Assembly: GCA_016868665.1 (NCBI GenBank)
Contig: VGGK01000019.1
Location: 1 to 36,908 of the forward strand
Direction: 5' to 3'
From: Chlorobiota bacterium
GTDB lineage: Bacteria > Bacteroidota > Chlorobiia > Chlorobiales > Chlorobiaceae
Length of the DNA: 36,908 bases
The first letter of the stretch is position 1. Each line of letters opens with the position of its first letter. Shown here in pieces: positions 2,178 to 34,842 of this stretch. The position numbers were made by a program, and so were the translations under genes. The notes under the pieces are model-generated. The model saw only the letters and a program-made list of their open reading frames with translations, had not been told where the DNA came from and did not search any database.

Positions 2178-2894
2178 TCAGTAACTTCTCAGTGCGGCAA
2201 CAACAACTCCGTGAATCCTGAAATCCGAGTGTGCAGTAATCGGAATAGGACGGTAGGCAGGGTTTTCGGGCAGCAGAGTAACTGCTCCGCCTTTTTCGAT
2301 ACTGAGCGTTTTCACGGTCATTTCGCCATTGATGCTTGCTATCACGACCTGACGGTCCTTGGCTGTCTGTTTGGCTTCGACTACGAGTGTATCGCCAGGC
2401 ATGATGCCGATACCGGTCATGCTTTCGCCGTTTACCTTCAGCGCAAAGAGCTGTTTTTTGCCCTGTATCCAGGATGCGGGGATATCGATATGCTCTTCAA
2501 TTTCGCTGCTGACCGGATCGGGATAGCCTGCGGCAACGGCTTCGAGATAAAGGGGAACAGCGGCAGTGGATTTCTTCTGCAGCAGGTCTGTCTGCATAAA
2601 TTTTCCGATCTCGGATTCAAGTCGGAGCAAACGGTATTCAATGCTTCCGGTTCCGGATTTTTCTGCGGTCTTTTGCAGCATATTGCCGCTCCCGGTCATC
2701 AGCCATTCGGAATCGACGCCGAATTCGCTGCATAAAGAGTAAAGCGCACAGGCTTTCAGTTCCCCCTTGCCGTGCTCGATTTCCGACACTCTGTTGCCGG
2801 AAAGCCCAATTTTTCTTCCGAAATCCCGCTGGTTCAATCCGGCATGGCGGCGGGCTATCCTGAGCCTTTGACCGAACGATGAAGTTTCCTGCAT
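2178..2894 (-). CDS. LexA/CI-like transcriptional repressor (XRE HTH plus S24 autopeptidase)
   Basis: A 238-residue repressor. Residues 8-65 form an XRE/Cro-type helix-turn-helix (RLRIARRHAGLNQRDFGRKI then LSGNRVSEIE). Residues ~118-236 form an S24 peptidase domain like those of LexA and lambda CI. The Ala-Gly scissile bond is seen at 122-123 (EAVAAGYP). The catalytic dyad is Ser158 (VNGESMTGIGIMPGD) and Lys195 (EMTVKTL), so RecA-stimulated self-cleavage is plausible. The XRE rather than LexA-type winged helix makes it closer to phage CI or HdiR-like regulators than to true LexA. Two TTCG-N6-CGAA sites lie just upstream and suggest autoregulation. It is convergent with the CBS gene and divergent from the amidohydrolase gene. 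No phage genes are visible around it, so it may be a chromosomal stress regulator. Confidence 0.9.
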   Translation of the reverse strand: MQETSSFGQRLRIARRHAGLNQRDFGRKIGLSGNRVSEIEHGKGELKACALYSLCSEFGVDSEWLMTGSGNMLQKTAEKSGTGSIEYRLLRLESEIGKFMQTDLLQKKSTAAVPLYLEAVAAGYPDPVSSEIEEHIDIPASWIQGKKQLFALKVNGESMTGIGIMPGDTLVVEAKQTAKDRQVVIASINGEMTVKTLSIEKGGAVTLLPENPAYRPIPITAHSDFRIHGVVVAALRSY

Positions 2895-2922
2895 AATCTC
2901 TCCGGTTGGTCTTATAATAATA

Positions 2923-2966
2923 TTCGATTAATCGAAATAATAGCCAATATATTTCGGAATGCCGAA
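2923..2966. promoter_or_regulatory. Paired TTCG-N6-CGAA palindromes, putative operator of the S24 repressor
   Basis: Two 14-base sites share outer halves: TTCGATTAATCGAA at 2923-2936 (perfect palindrome) and TTCGGAATGCCGAA at 2953-2966 (inverted repeat with a four-base centre). Their starts are exactly 30 bases apart, about three helical turns, and both lie within 75 bases upstream of the repressor start. This layout fits cooperative binding by two repressor dimers in the divergent intergenic region. The binding partner is inferred from position only. Confidence 0.55.
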
Positions 2967-3112
2967 TATTTTTAGCTGAAATAAAGCGGTGACAGCCCGA
3001 TTTTCATTTAGCAGGATATTTTGTACTTTGTCTGAGTGCCTGTTCCTTCCGCCCGGATGCATGCAAATTCCTTTCAGTCTCTCTGCATTACCTATTTAAG
3101 AAGGTTGTACTT

Positions 3113-4336
3113 ATGTTTGAACGAAGAGATAATCCTCTTGCTTCGCGTATTCGGGAAAAAGCAGAATACATTTATCCTGAAATCGTTGATCTTCGCAGAG
3201 CCATTCATGCCCATCCCGAACTTTCCTACGAGGAGTTTCAGACTACTGCAAGTATCGTGAACTACCTGAGAACCATCGGCATCGAACCTGAACCGCCGTT
3301 TCTTGAAACAGGCGTGACGGCTATCATAAAAGGAGGCGGTACGGCCGGCGTCGGCAGGCGGCGTTCTCTTCTCGCTCTCAGGGCTGATATCGATGCGCTT
3401 CCGGTAAACGAGGAGAACAGTCATGCTTTCTGCTCGCGGGAGCCAGGCAAGATGCATGCCTGCGGTCACGATATGCATACGGCAATGTTGCTTGGTGCGG
3501 CAAAAATACTTTTGATGTTTCGTTCGGAACTTAATGGCGACGTGCTGCTGATCTTTCAGCCTGCCGAAGAAAAAGCTCCCGGCGGCGCCAGACCGCTTAT
3601 CGAGGCGGGGATTTTCGAGCGCTTCAAGCCTCAGGCGATTTTCGGGCAGCACTGTTTTCCGAGTGTGGAAGCCGGAACGGTGGCTCTTTCTGGCGGCAGT
3701 TTCATGGCAGCGACGGACGAGCTCTATATTACCGTCAACGGCCGTGGAGGTCATGCTTCCGCACCGCATAAGGCGGCAGATCCTGTTCTTGCCGCAGCGC
3801 ATATCATAACGGCGGTTCAGCATCTTGTGAGCCGCGTTGCGCCGCCGCATGAACCTGCCGTGGTTTCCATAGCCTCGATTCACGGCGGAAACGCACCGAA
3901 CGTTATCCCTTCAGCCGTTACCATGTCAGGCACCATGCGCACCATGAACGAGTCCCTGCGCAGCCGGCTGAAAGAGCGGCTGCTCGAAACGGTTACGAGT
4001 ACGGCTAAGGCTCTGGGAGTAAGTGCGGCACTTGAAATAAGGACAGGATACCCGGCGCTTATCAACGATCCGGCCATGACCGATGAGGCGGAGGGTTACT
4101 GCATCGAGTTTCTTGGCAAGCAGAATGTAAAGCAGAGCGAGCCGCTGATGACCGCGGAGGATTTTGCATATTACCTTCAGCAGATACCCGGGACCTTCTG
4201 GCAGATCGGAACGGGTGACGGTCAGGCGGAACAGCGGGGGAACACCCTGCACTCCTCAACTTTCGATCCCGACGAGAACGTGCTTGCGACGGGGGCCGGA
4301 CTGCTGGCTTATACGGCGCTGCGTTTTTTTATGTGA
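3113..4336 (+). CDS. M20D-family metal-dependent amidohydrolase / aminoacylase
   Basis: A 407-residue member of the M20D peptidase family, whose members (hippurate hydrolase, IAA-amino acid hydrolase, N-acyl-L-amino acid amidohydrolase) remove acyl groups from amino acids. Metal-site motifs are present: IHAHPELSYEE, LRADIDALPV, MHACGHDMHT with Cys117 and His119, the catalytic glutamate region QPAEEKAPGGA (Glu152/153) and His180 in FGQHCFP. The lid (dimerisation) domain follows from ~200 with GRGGHASAPHKAADP, and the C-terminal part has MTAEDFAYYLQQIPG. No signal peptide is visible, so it is cytoplasmic. The start is preceded by AAGAAGG at a good distance. The substrate cannot be told from sequence; deacylation of an amino acid is the family expectation. 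Confidence 0.88.
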   Translation: MFERRDNPLASRIREKAEYIYPEIVDLRRAIHAHPELSYEEFQTTASIVNYLRTIGIEPEPPFLETGVTAIIKGGGTAGVGRRRSLLALRADIDALPVNEENSHAFCSREPGKMHACGHDMHTAMLLGAAKILLMFRSELNGDVLLIFQPAEEKAPGGARPLIEAGIFERFKPQAIFGQHCFPSVEAGTVALSGGSFMAATDELYITVNGRGGHASAPHKAADPVLAAAHIITAVQHLVSRVAPPHEPAVVSIASIHGGNAPNVIPSAVTMSGTMRTMNESLRSRLKERLLETVTSTAKALGVSAALEIRTGYPALINDPAMTDEAEGYCIEFLGKQNVKQSEPLMTAEDFAYYLQQIPGTFWQIGTGDGQAEQRGNTLHSSTFDPDENVLATGAGLLAYTALRFFM

Positions 4337-30626: not shown

Positions 30627-30911
30627 CTATTGCGCACGCGATGTGCCCGTTATTTTTACAATAACCGGATAATTTCCCAGATTATGTGGAATTAAAGCCA
30701 GTGTTCGTTCATTTTCTTTGGCAAGACCGACAACGATAACCTGATTTTCTTTCTCGTCCAGACCTATTCCGACCGACACAACGTCGGGCAGGGCAAGCAG
30801 TTCCGGTTCGCTCGCACGCTTCACCTCGCTGATGGTCTTCATATTCATATTTTTTGAGCAATTGGGCATAATCGGTAACAAACATAACGGCATAATCCGC
30901 AATATCTTCAC
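30627..30911 (-). CDS. Small protein resembling the N-terminal domain of the adjacent serine protease
   Basis: An open frame of 94 residues starting at a GTG that overlaps the protease stop (GTGA at 30908-30911), or about 70 residues if an internal ATG (Met22 or Met24) is used. No ribosome site is clear, so translational coupling is likely. Residues ~36-92 align by eye with residues ~17-82 of the protease: PELLALPDVVSVGIGLDE against ESLMSRKNVVATGIGYKT, then LIPHNLGNYPVIVKITGTSRA against LLPKTVDGISTDVVATGRIRA. It is thus a free-standing copy of that alpha/beta domain. A possible role is inhibitor, chaperone or substrate adaptor of the protease; this is inference. Confidence 0.7.
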   Translation of the reverse strand: MKILRIMPLCLLPIMPNCSKNMNMKTISEVKRASEPELLALPDVVSVGIGLDEKENQVIVVGLAKENERTLALIPHNLGNYPVIVKITGTSRAQ

Positions 30912-31906
30912 AATGTTACACCAAGAAGGCTGAACACGTTCTGGATGCGATTGATCACCGTGGTTTCGTCACTGCCGGCGAAAAGCAGCCCCACAAGGTG
31001 GTTCGAGTTGTCAAGCACAGCCGAACCGCTGTCGCCGCCCTGGCTCATGGCTCCGGCAATCAGCTGATCGTGGAACCGGGCAACACGACCGGCCCCATAG
31101 CTTACGTTGACCGTGACATCGATCTGCTGGATTTCCCCTGTGGTCAAACCTGTCGTTCTGCCGCTTTTCTTCACTGCCATGCCCAGAGTCCCTTCCGCCG
31201 TGTCGGCAATAGATCCGAATCCGTGAATATCGTTCTGCAGATCTGCCGGGTTGATCGGCCGGGCAAGCGCGGCATCGACAAGATTGTCTGCACCTTGCAC
31301 ATGTACAGCCTGCAGGCGAGTGTCGCTACCGGTTACCGAAGCAAGAAAGTTGCATACATCGGCAATCGAATTCGCTACCGGACAGCTGCTCGACGAGCCC
31401 GAATAGGTTATGGGTACAAATTCAGCAAGCTCGGCTATTTTGTCGGCAGGATTCAATCCGCCGTCATAGGGACCCGGCTGGAGAATTGCATCCCCGACAG
31501 AAGCATCGTTACTGTTGGCCAGCACATGATTGTTCGAAAGGATGAAGAGCTCCCCGTTCCTGTGTACCAGACATCCGAGCGTACCGGCCGTAATTTCGAA
31601 ATGCCCGATGCTCACCCCGCCAGGTGCGGGCCGGAATCTTCCTGTCGGTGGCTGGAACGCCCGGATCCTGCCAGTCGCCACAACATCGGTAGAAATGCCG
31701 TCAACCGTTTTCGGCAGCAGATCACTGCTGGTCAGCCTCGACACAGGCTCTTTTCGTTCCACCGAACAGATAATGCTCAATTCTCCGGTCTTTTTCCCCG
31801 ACGCGGTTTTGTAACCGATGCCGGTAGCAACCACGTTCTTTCGGCTCATAAGCGATTCTCGAACGGAACCGAGCAGCGGAATAATAGAGGAGATAACGGT
31901 GTCCAT
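30908..31906 (-). CDS. Trypsin-like (S1-type) serine protease without signal peptide
   Basis: A 332-residue protein from the ATG at 31906, which has an AGGAG site seven bases upstream; a longer frame to 31960 lacks one. Residues ~15-85 form a small alpha/beta domain (KNVVATGIGYK). The chymotrypsin-fold catalytic triad is visible: His in FILSNNHVLANSN, Asp in NLVDAALARP, and Ser in SQGGDSGSAVLD. KKSGRTTGLTTGEI and GDAILQPGPYDGG are features shared with NAL1-like bacterial proteases. There is no hydrophobic leader, so it looks cytoplasmic or exported by a non-Sec route. Its substrate is unknown. It is coupled to the downstream small gene. Confidence 0.82.
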   Translation of the reverse strand: MDTVISSIIPLLGSVRESLMSRKNVVATGIGYKTASGKKTGELSIICSVERKEPVSRLTSSDLLPKTVDGISTDVVATGRIRAFQPPTGRFRPAPGGVSIGHFEITAGTLGCLVHRNGELFILSNNHVLANSNDASVGDAILQPGPYDGGLNPADKIAELAEFVPITYSGSSSSCPVANSIADVCNFLASVTGSDTRLQAVHVQGADNLVDAALARPINPADLQNDIHGFGSIADTAEGTLGMAVKKSGRTTGLTTGEIQQIDVTVNVSYGAGRVARFHDQLIAGAMSQGGDSGSAVLDNSNHLVGLLFAGSDETTVINRIQNVFSLLGVTL

Positions 31907-32118: not shown

Positions 32119-34836
32119 TCAGCGTTTCGACTCACCGATACAATACGCACAATTGTCAAACCCCTCCTGATGCGCATGAATAAGTGTTCTGAAGCCAACC
32201 ATGTTGCCTCTGGATGTTTTTTCTATCCATTTGCACCCTTTTTTATGAATTTCCCGGGTATTTTTGTTGCCGATAAATTCAAAATCTCCAGAAGCACAAA
32301 CATTGAGCACATGCGTGACCATTCCGGTCAAACGACCATTGATGGTTTGTGAAACAGCGATTTCATATGAACAGCTGGCTTGCTCTGGCGCTTTAACATA
32401 CAAGTGTATGGCCGTCTCTTCGATATCATCGAATGCGACATTCCTGATAGCACAGAGATTTCCGGCCGTTAACTTATAGTATGCGTATCGCGTGTTTGAT
32501 CGGTCAAACTGCATGCCTATCATCTGACAACCTTCGCAAAGCTGACGCAAAACACGAATCCAGCATGGAGTCCCGATGGGTAGTTGTTCAATATTGAATT
32601 CTAAATCGGCAAACTCCCCTGCCCCCCCTCTTCTTGCAATGAACGACAACTCAGTGAGCCCCATAGGCAGTACATCTACAACGCTGATATTTTTCCATGC
32701 ATAATTATTGCTTTCGGAAATGAATTTGTTGAAAAGAGCTCCTGTTGTAATAAGCGATTTGTCCGGTGCTGGATCCAGAGGATCATCGAGTTCCGCAACG
32801 ATGCAAAAATGCCCAAGGGGTGGAATATCCGCCGAGTGCCAGACAATTTCTGCTATTGTCACAACACCGGGACTCACGCTTGGCAGGTATGCTGAACCGA
32901 TAGTATGCCAGCTCGAAGGTGCAGAAAACGTACTCGGATCTGACCAATGCAGGTTGATTGTAACGCTTCCGGCCGCAATGCCGCGATTCTGGAGACGGAT
33001 ATAGACATAATTGTCCTGACCCTGTTCTACATTTTCAGCTAAATCATCCTTCGTCATATCCCCCAGTACCGAGGCCGGATCGACAACCTGTGCGGTTCGG
33101 GTAATGATATCAGGACTTCTCCAAAGGGTTCCGATGGAAGGCGTCGTACCACTATCACTCAAACTGTCGCGCACATATATATCAGGACCGATACCTACTG
33201 CCGTAAAGGCGTTCTTGATCGAATCAAGAATCTGCAGATATGCAGTGTCAGTGGAATAGAGCGATTGTGCAGCATTCAATGCGGCTTCACGGCATTCGAG
33301 GAATGTTGCGCTGTTATTGCCGAGCAATCCTGCCGACTGGACATGAAACATGATTTTTTCCACGATATGACGGCCAAGTGCTGTAACTGAAATGCCGCTG
33401 GCGGGATGGGTTCCTCCATAGATCATAAAGTACGCGGCATAGAGCATAGGCCCGCAAGCTTCATGCGGGTCCTGACCATTGAAGTAGCCGGTGCTCATGG
33501 TATCAAGGGAAGCACTGACATGATTGGGTATTCTTGCCAGTGCACCGGGATCGGAAGGATTGCTCATTCTCCTCAGACAGTCTCCCGGAAATCCCGGAGT
33601 CGTGCACTCTTCGCCAATATCGCTGTCGTCACTATCGATGAAAGCGGCAAAAATGTCCGAAAAAGCTTCGTTAAGCCCTCCTGACTCATTGAAATAATCA
33701 AGGTTTGAGGTATGATCGGTGACCGCATGAGTAAATTCATGCGCAACAACATCTTTTGCCGTCAGATAGTCAAAGGTTGAATTATCTCCGTCGCCAAAAT
33801 AAAATTTCTTTTGTGAAGGGTAATAGTAAGCGTTATTGTAGTCGATCCCGAGATGAACGCCGCAATAGACTGTCGATCCCGCATTATCGTAACTGTTCCA
33901 GTTATGAACAGTTCTGTAATAATCAACAGTTTCGCCTATATATCGGTGAACATCGACTTCAGCTCCCTGATGACTTTTTCTTGGAGTAGTCGATGCATTA
34001 TTCCAGTTGTCGTCACTGTCTTCACTGACATTGCCGGCACCAGCATTCCCGCTTGCTGAGCCGTCAAGATCACAGGTTCGCAGTTCAGGGCCTCCTGAAG
34101 AGGTTCTTGTTGAATCGATAAGCTTGAATGTTGTGCCGGAAACGGTGCTGTTGAGCAAACCGCTTCCAGAATAATAACCCGAACCGATATACCTCAAATC
34201 ATTATAGCTGAAGACCACCTTGCCGTTTTTTGCGTCAACATAGTAACGCATTAATCTCGAATGCTCCCTGTCATCTATGGAAATATCCCATGCCAGATGA
34301 AAAGAACCATCATGACGGATAATGGTGAGTGTCGGGGTATGGCTGCTGTCAGCTTTTCCTTCACCAGCGGCATTGAGGGCCTTTTTCAGCGCTGCATCAG
34401 CATTGATCTTTGGTTCTGTATCAAGATCAATGTCGGGGACATATTTGTTAGCAATCCTGTTAACTGTCTTGTCAGCAGCAAACTGCACTCGTATGGTTCC
34501 GCCGCTGACAGGTATCCCCTTGTGTTTCTGCTGCATCGCAACGCAAATATTTCCAGCAGAATCGGAAACTTTGTTAATCAGGGCAAGATCACGTTTTGGA
34601 TCATCCATGCGGAAAAGAGAGCGGTTTTCCTCAAGAAACTCCAGAGCAGCCTGTTCGACAACTTTCTGCGATATGCCCCGAAACGGTTCAGCGAGTTTTC
34701 CGGTCATCAGTGCCGGAGCATTGAGAGCGTCGTCCCACCGAATTTTCAGCTCGGGATCTTTCTGTCGTAATGCGCCAAGATCGCGTTCCTGAGCAAAAGA
34801 CGGCTTCGATGGCGGGGTTGTTTTCTGCTTAGACAT
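32119..34836 (-). CDS. Thermolysin-family (M4) metalloprotease with C-terminal His/Cys cluster
   Basis: A 905-residue protein; the ATG at 34836 has AGGAGA at good spacing, while the ATG six bases upstream is too close to it. Residues ~30-210 form an FTP/PepSY-type propeptide. The M4 core spans ~215-550: zinc motif HEFTH at 366-370, third ligand Glu390 in GGLNEAFSD, and a proton-donor histidine candidate His458 in DPHEACG, where the usual H-x-N-S-G-I is altered. A beta-rich region (~570-705) looks like a CARDB/Ig-type module and is followed by another beta region. The last ~45 residues carry a possible metal site with His864, Cys868, Cys896 and Cys899. No signal peptide is visible, unusual for M4 enzymes, although protealysin-like enzymes also lack one. 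Confidence 0.85.
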   Translation of the reverse strand: MSKQKTTPPSKPSFAQERDLGALRQKDPELKIRWDDALNAPALMTGKLAEPFRGISQKVVEQAALEFLEENRSLFRMDDPKRDLALINKVSDSAGNICVAMQQKHKGIPVSGGTIRVQFAADKTVNRIANKYVPDIDLDTEPKINADAALKKALNAAGEGKADSSHTPTLTIIRHDGSFHLAWDISIDDREHSRLMRYYVDAKNGKVVFSYNDLRYIGSGYYSGSGLLNSTVSGTTFKLIDSTRTSSGGPELRTCDLDGSASGNAGAGNVSEDSDDNWNNASTTPRKSHQGAEVDVHRYIGETVDYYRTVHNWNSYDNAGSTVYCGVHLGIDYNNAYYYPSQKKFYFGDGDNSTFDYLTAKDVVAHEFTHAVTDHTSNLDYFNESGGLNEAFSDIFAAFIDSDDSDIGEECTTPGFPGDCLRRMSNPSDPGALARIPNHVSASLDTMSTGYFNGQDPHEACGPMLYAAYFMIYGGTHPASGISVTALGRHIVEKIMFHVQSAGLLGNNSATFLECREAALNAAQSLYSTDTAYLQILDSIKNAFTAVGIGPDIYVRDSLSDSGTTPSIGTLWRSPDIITRTAQVVDPASVLGDMTKDDLAENVEQGQDNYVYIRLQNRGIAAGSVTINLHWSDPSTFSAPSSWHTIGSAYLPSVSPGVVTIAEIVWHSADIPPLGHFCIVAELDDPLDPAPDKSLITTGALFNKFISESNNYAWKNISVVDVLPMGLTELSFIARRGGAGEFADLEFNIEQLPIGTPCWIRVLRQLCEGCQMIGMQFDRSNTRYAYYKLTAGNLCAIRNVAFDDIEETAIHLYVKAPEQASCSYEIAVSQTINGRLTGMVTHVLNVCASGDFEFIGNKNTREIHKKGCKWIEKTSRGNMVGFRTLIHAHQEGFDNCAYCIGESKR

Positions 34837-34842
34837 GATCAT

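Follow-up and report, generated by a model that had tools for sequence, protein, structure and literature searches.

Plant NAL1 proteases control leaf shape and flowering. We know of no free-standing partner of the N-terminal domain for any NAL1 protein, and no work on the function of that domain was found among openly accessible papers. Small proteins that act on a protease encoded beside them have been described for other enzymes. In Streptococcus pyogenes, the gene directly downstream of that for SpeB encodes a small product, Spi, which has been likened to a pro-domain and inhibits the protease; SpeB is a cysteine protease, unlike the enzyme considered here. Emfourin, encoded in the protealysin operon, binds its protease 1:1 and blocks the region of the active site; to our knowledge, a likeness between emfourin and any domain of protealysin has not been described. 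The pro region of alpha-lytic protease, which belongs to the same chain as the enzyme, also inhibits it in trans. The same pro region speeds folding about 10^9-fold, and the junction between pro region and protease lies across the active site (PMC2829044).

Here we describe a locus in which a serine protease is encoded together with a small protein related to its own N-terminal domain. The locus lies in a stretch of 36,908 nucleotides from a Chlorobiota bacterium (contig VGGK01000019.1), and this whole stretch is referred to below as the window.

The gene pair and the protease

The features of the locus are listed in Table 1. A preliminary description of the window had the small gene overlapping the stop codon of the protease gene by the letters GTGA, and this is borne out, with both open reading frames found on the minus strand where that description placed them. 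The same −4 overlap is seen in many relatives. The sequence AAGGAG precedes the protease ATG at 31906. When contigs were scanned with the protease, the nearest records came from Chlorobiaceae, Chlorobaculum and Chlorobium.

Table 1. Positions of the two genes and of their parts in the window
Feature	Position	Strand	Basis
Protease CDS, NAL1-like trypsin-fold serine protease, 332 aa	30908..31906	-	Without signal peptide; Trypsin_2 and Trypsin matches
Tethered N-terminal domain, protease residues 1-85	31652..31906	-	HHalign match to small protein; NAL1_N in 40/41 members
Junction, protease residues 86-108, conserved RPAPGGVSIGH (putative processing site or hinge)	31583..31651	-	pLDDT <50; invariant residues
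Catalytic domain, protease residues 109-332	30911..31582	-	H127 31526-31528, D211 31274-31276, S293 31028-31030
GTGA overlap of the protease stop codon (TGA) with the small-gene start codon (GTG)	30908..30911	-	Direct reading
Small partner CDS, 94 aa, GTG start	30627..30911	-	Adjoins protease in 43/43 cellular loci; frame kept in 9 Chlorobia
Predicted lipoprotein-type signal peptide, small-protein residues 1-18 (VKILRIMPLCLLPIMPNC)	30858..30911	-	Pattern kept in 9 Chlorobia and 3 proteobacterial relatives
Pro-domain-like domain, small-protein residues 24-94	30630..30842	-	AlphaFold pLDDT 91; likeness in Foldseek to the pro region of alpha-lytic protease

Just upstream of the pair, at 32119-34842 on the minus strand, is a gene for a thermolysin-like M4 metalloprotease of 907 amino acids with FTP, PepSY and M4 domains and no obvious signal peptide. 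It was considered as a third member of the system and rejected, as it is present only in the closest relative (L020).

The window protease scores above the Pfam cut-offs for Trypsin_2 and Trypsin. It remains under the curated cut-offs of both NAL1_N (18 bits against a cut-off of 27) and Nal1_C; NAL1_N is matched by 40 of 41 family members, with a best E of 4.6e-7. The best Foldseek match of the protease model (pLDDT 82) is rice NARROW LEAF 1, with which the whole model aligns at E 2e-14, and the streptogrisins and alpha-lytic protease, of family S1E, come next. The triad H127/D211/S293 is intact in the window protease, and a His-Asp-Ser triad is kept across 120 homologues from cells and viruses, bar one gap. 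Residues 2-77 are predicted to form an alpha-beta-beta-beta arrangement with a short helical turn ahead of the last strand. The junction that follows the N-terminal domain is modelled with pLDDT below 50, yet R92, P93, G96, G97, S99 and H102 are invariant among 41 sequences, and we propose residues 86-108 as a candidate processing site or hinge. Inspection of 41 close homologues of the protease found a signal peptide in none of them.

Occurrence of the pair in cells and viruses

The sample used for recurrence was obtained by scanning genome contigs with the protease alone, which yielded 43 cellular relatives, nearly all of 54–90% identity, from Chlorobiota, Bacteroidota, Balneolota, Calditrichota, KSB1, Spirochaetota, Pseudomonadota, Thermodesulfobacteriota and a deltaproteobacterial bin. 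Each of the 43 loci has the small gene adjacent to the protease gene, directly downstream in 42 and, in a member of the Balneolaceae (L045), just upstream and divergent. The neighbourhood survey that had been proposed as a check on the pairing thus finds the pair recurring across phyla. Among 394 Bacteroidota genomes the small gene lies beside 11 of 11 assessable close homologues, with two more homologues at contig ends. More distant proteases on Rhizobium and Rubrobacter plasmids (36–38% identity) have a small-family gene alongside, divergent in Rhizobium, as does a distant group of Bacteroidota. No small gene was found next to some of the remaining distant proteases from cells, among them L104, L106, L112 and L114. 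Genes common to the neighbourhoods of the pair were sought as well, and none recurs beyond close relatives.

Several of these loci have features of their own. One Bacteroidota locus (L111, G200) carries tandem lipoprotein-type proteases at 772-1926 and 2252-3397 followed by one small gene, and in its group both partners have export signals. On two Rhizobium plasmids (L176:1312-4861 and L189:289-3870) the protease gene is next to those of a radical SAM protein and a peptide-modification protein with an HEXXH motif, a context that suggests a link to a modified-peptide system. A homologue in Tsukamurella (L175:3890-5788) is located inside a protein annotated as a DNA/RNA non-specific endonuclease, and by annotation homologues in Streptomyces and Rhizobium are likewise found within such proteins, an arrangement that recalls the NucA-peptidase conflict systems of Kaur et al. 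2020.

Homologues of the protease also occur in viruses. IMG/VR contains 54 of them, with identities up to 57%, and a phage collection adds a huge phage and the Aeropyrum coil-shaped virus. In all, 55 virus homologues were searched for a small gene nearby, and no convincing one was found even with an extended profile and with filters off. Scans of whole records (35 from IMG/VR and two named ones; such records may be fragments) gave no match in 7 of the 37, and in the other 30 the sole match was the N-terminal domain of the protease itself. One open reading frame resembling the small domain weakly (L168:5720-6109, E 0.002), about 1 kb downstream of the protease on a 473-kb phage contig, is possibly an exception. 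The comparison holds at matched identity: between 50 and 57%, the partner is found in cells and not in viruses. The virus homologues keep the catalytic triad, and the N-terminal domain is recognisable in most of them. In the virus loci checked for context, genes for terminase, tail sheath, clamp loader and UvsX are nearby; for several of these loci such neighbours led us to reject the explanation that the homologues are mislabelled bacterial DNA. A quick tree of the proteases, whose long branches are unsure, puts the 41 close paired proteases together with one virus (L121) inside and other viruses just outside. The putative serine protease of the Aeropyrum coil-shaped virus (L177:2974-3954) is 34% identical to the window protease and has no partner gene beside it.

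As no convincing partner accompanies the phage homologues, the protease can occur on its own, and since the virus proteases have an intact triad, the small protein does not seem to be needed for folding. The contrast between cells, with a partner in all 43 loci, and viruses, with no convincing partner in 55, is a clear hint that the small protein works for the cell rather than for the folding of the enzyme.

The small protein and the tethered domain

Searches of the small protein against Pfam, NCBIfam, PADLOC and PDB sequences gave nothing above chance, no pro-domain family matched it by sequence, and neither Trypco1 nor Trypco2 matched any of 43 small-family members at E values up to 1. An annotated relative in Rubrobacter is listed as a hypothetical protein. 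The small gene is thus outside every named family in the libraries searched.

The relationship with the protease was examined with family profiles. HHalign comparison of 43 small proteins with 41 protease N-termini gave a probability of 98.2%, an E of 5.6e-14 and a score of 70.2 over 72 columns, compared with scores of 17.0 for the best of 60 column-shuffled controls and 11.2 for the reversed control. The profile-profile comparison recommended in the preliminary description is therefore significant, and the alignment made there by eye, which paired IPHNLGNYPVIVKITG with LLPKTVDGISTDVVATG, had the correct register. The similarity runs end to end, from one end of the small domain to the other and over protease residues 5-85. 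The HMM of the small protein on its own recovers the N-terminal domain of the protease in the window genome and its relatives at E between 1e-4 and 6e-13. Pairwise BLASTP of the small protein against the protease gave no alignment, so that the homology is visible only with family profiles. The AlphaFold model of the small protein (pLDDT 91) has a predicted alpha-beta-beta-alpha-beta order, in agreement with the fold of the protease N-terminal domain. We conclude that the small protein is confirmed as a free-standing homologue of that domain.

A joint tree of the two kinds of domain, built from a short alignment, contains a split (support 0.993) that sets 51 of 51 small domains, together with only five tethered domains, apart from the rest. 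Because the split separates the small domains from nearly all tethered ones, we regard the small family as old, and a recent duplication in the window genome was rejected. The earlier characterisation of the small protein as a copy of the protease's own N-terminal domain is thus right as to homology, which the profiles support, but not as to a recent copy. The five tethered domains that group with the small ones all belong to Bacteroidota (L074-L078), and profile scores agree with their placement. As far as can be told from these sequences, a domain of the small type is in the tethered position at least once, and two kinds of domain can therefore fill the same position. These five proteases may be considered the best sequence evidence, short as the alignment is, that both kinds occupy one and the same site of the catalytic domain.

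The location of the small protein differs among clades. In nine Chlorobia and three proteobacteria it starts at or near the overlap, with charged residues first, then a hydrophobic stretch and a Cys. A gammaproteobacterial sequence also has a signal peptide, but no lipobox. Twelve of the 13 members of this clade pass a permissive lipoprotein pattern. The residue at position −1 is Asn, which is not canonical, in the window and most Chlorobia; the proteobacterial sequences (LFAC, FAAC, VVAC) look canonical. Across the nine Chlorobia the signal segment shows no frameshifts and mild constraint, and constraint on the domain is strong. The domain is preceded by an in-frame ATG at 30842, and an ATG or GTG is found at this place throughout the signal-peptide clade (13 of 13); no clear ribosome site was detected for the ATG in the window. 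Use of the second start could possibly supply an additional, cytoplasmic form of the small protein.

The window clade appears odd in combining a protease without a predicted export signal with a small protein for which export is predicted. The preliminary description supposed a signal-less protease that has to be restrained in the cytoplasm. The protease is indeed without a signal, but the small protein of this clade has one of the lipobox type, so that restraint in the cytoplasm cannot simply be concluded for this organism. In Calditrichota, Bacteroidales and Spirochaetes neither partner has a signal. In the Bacteroidota L074-L078 both partners have export signals, those of the proteases being of lipoprotein type and those of the small proteins likewise, except for the plain-looking signal peptide of L075.

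Possible roles and known systems

When the model of the small protein was compared with 350,542 chains by Foldseek, the pro region of alpha-lytic protease accounted for five of the top 31. The matches have probabilities of 0.91–0.99, TM values up to 0.58 and E values of 0.06–0.17, which are not significant alone; we give them weight nonetheless, because the S1E enzymes rank closest to the protease after NAL1. This weak likeness in fold to an inhibitory pro region favours an inhibitor over the activator and the adaptor that the preliminary description also put forward. We therefore tentatively view the two genes as a protease-regulator pair in which the small protein is a trans-acting, pro-domain-like inhibitor, a reading to which we give slightly less than an even chance and for which both binding and inhibition are inferred.

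It is possible that the tethered N-terminal domain covers the catalytic domain in the manner of the pro region in the S1E proteases (alpha-lytic protease and streptogrisins). The small protein would then dock in trans at the same site once the enzyme's own domain has shifted away or been removed by cleavage, and the docked protein would inhibit the enzyme and protect the producing cell. There are lineages in which protease and small protein both look cytoplasmic. In Chlorobia and their relatives the small protein might guard the envelope against protease freed by lysis or by another route, or the second start might provide small protein in the cytoplasm. Besides the E values of the fold matches and the lack of any pro-domain family among the sequence matches, it counts against the inhibitor that the partners of the window clade appear from their sequences to be in different compartments and that some distant cellular proteases have no adjacent partner.

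Competition between homologous domains for one site could also work in the opposite direction. The small protein could displace an autoinhibitory tethered domain, leave the active site free and so switch the enzyme on, and the single coupled operon fits an obligatory activator. We find this unlikely, as the virus proteases keep the triad and have no convincing activator gene; an activator would therefore leave them permanently off or dependent on a host factor.

A similarly doubtful proposal is an adaptor or second subunit: by pairing with the N-terminal domain, in the way of domains in oligomers, the small protein would determine assembly, choice of substrate or, in its lipoprotein forms, location at the membrane. 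The same predicted fold of small protein and tethered domain, the several chains held in each of the plant NAL1 structure entries and the predicted membrane anchoring in one clade are all consistent with it. However, phages manage without the small protein, and in the window clade protease and anchor are predicted to be in separate compartments.

The likeness in fold to the alpha-lytic pro region, which accelerates folding about 10^9-fold (PMC2829044), raises the question of whether the small protein folds the protease in trans. All close enzymes already have a tethered domain and the phage homologues lack a free one, which makes control a likelier function than folding alone; with the small protein moreover predicted to be exported in the window clade, we regard a folding role as improbable.

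Release of the protease against other cells, with the small protein shielding the producer and its kin (at the envelope in some clades), would suit the signal-less enzyme and envelope-targeted partner of the window clade and the distant homologues within proteins annotated as DNA/RNA non-specific endonucleases, and the same idea has been put forward for protealysin and emfourin, but we consider it very unlikely, given that no gene family recurs by the pair beyond close relatives, so that no delivery system is seen, and that signals are absent from both proteins in many phyla and present in both in one group.

With these findings, two hypothetical genes become a testable protease-regulator pair present in at least seven phyla, and NAL1-like proteases gain a partner family. 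The Bacteroidota group with the small-type tethered domain represents a natural domain-swap experiment. It is further conceivable, although improbable, that the small proteins are a family of trans-acting pro-domains confined to cells, with host copies of the enzyme braked and phage enzymes unbraked. If so, a host small protein might bind and block the proteases of incoming phages, or phage proteases may have evolved to escape it.

The preliminary description knew of no named system with this layout, but precedents exist in protealysin-emfourin and in the trypsin-like peptidases accompanied by Trypco proteins, to which SpeB-Spi can be added. Protealysin of Serratia proteamaculans resembles the window enzyme in lacking a signal and in having the gene of a small protein (emfourin, M4in) next in its operon, but it is a metalloprotease. 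Trypco1 and Trypco2 are encoded by small genes neighbouring bacterial trypsin-like peptidases in conflict systems; the small protein of the window matches neither Pfam model, and no MoxR, vWA or STAND genes were noticed near it. SPRING is a separate protein that displaces the inhibitory pro-domain of site-one protease, although there the enzyme is of the subtilisin type, resides in the animal Golgi and is activated. In alpha-lytic protease, too, a related catalytic domain is preceded by a domain of like fold, but that pro region is in the same chain and about twice as long, whereas the window has a separate gene besides the tethered domain. Plant NAL1, the best structural match of the protease, shares with it the combination of an N-terminal domain and a trypsin-fold catalytic domain and differs in that the window protease is under both NAL1 family cut-offs. 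A detached, pro-domain-like regulator for NAL1-like serine proteases would therefore have known functional precedents, with a small family outside those named in the libraries searched.
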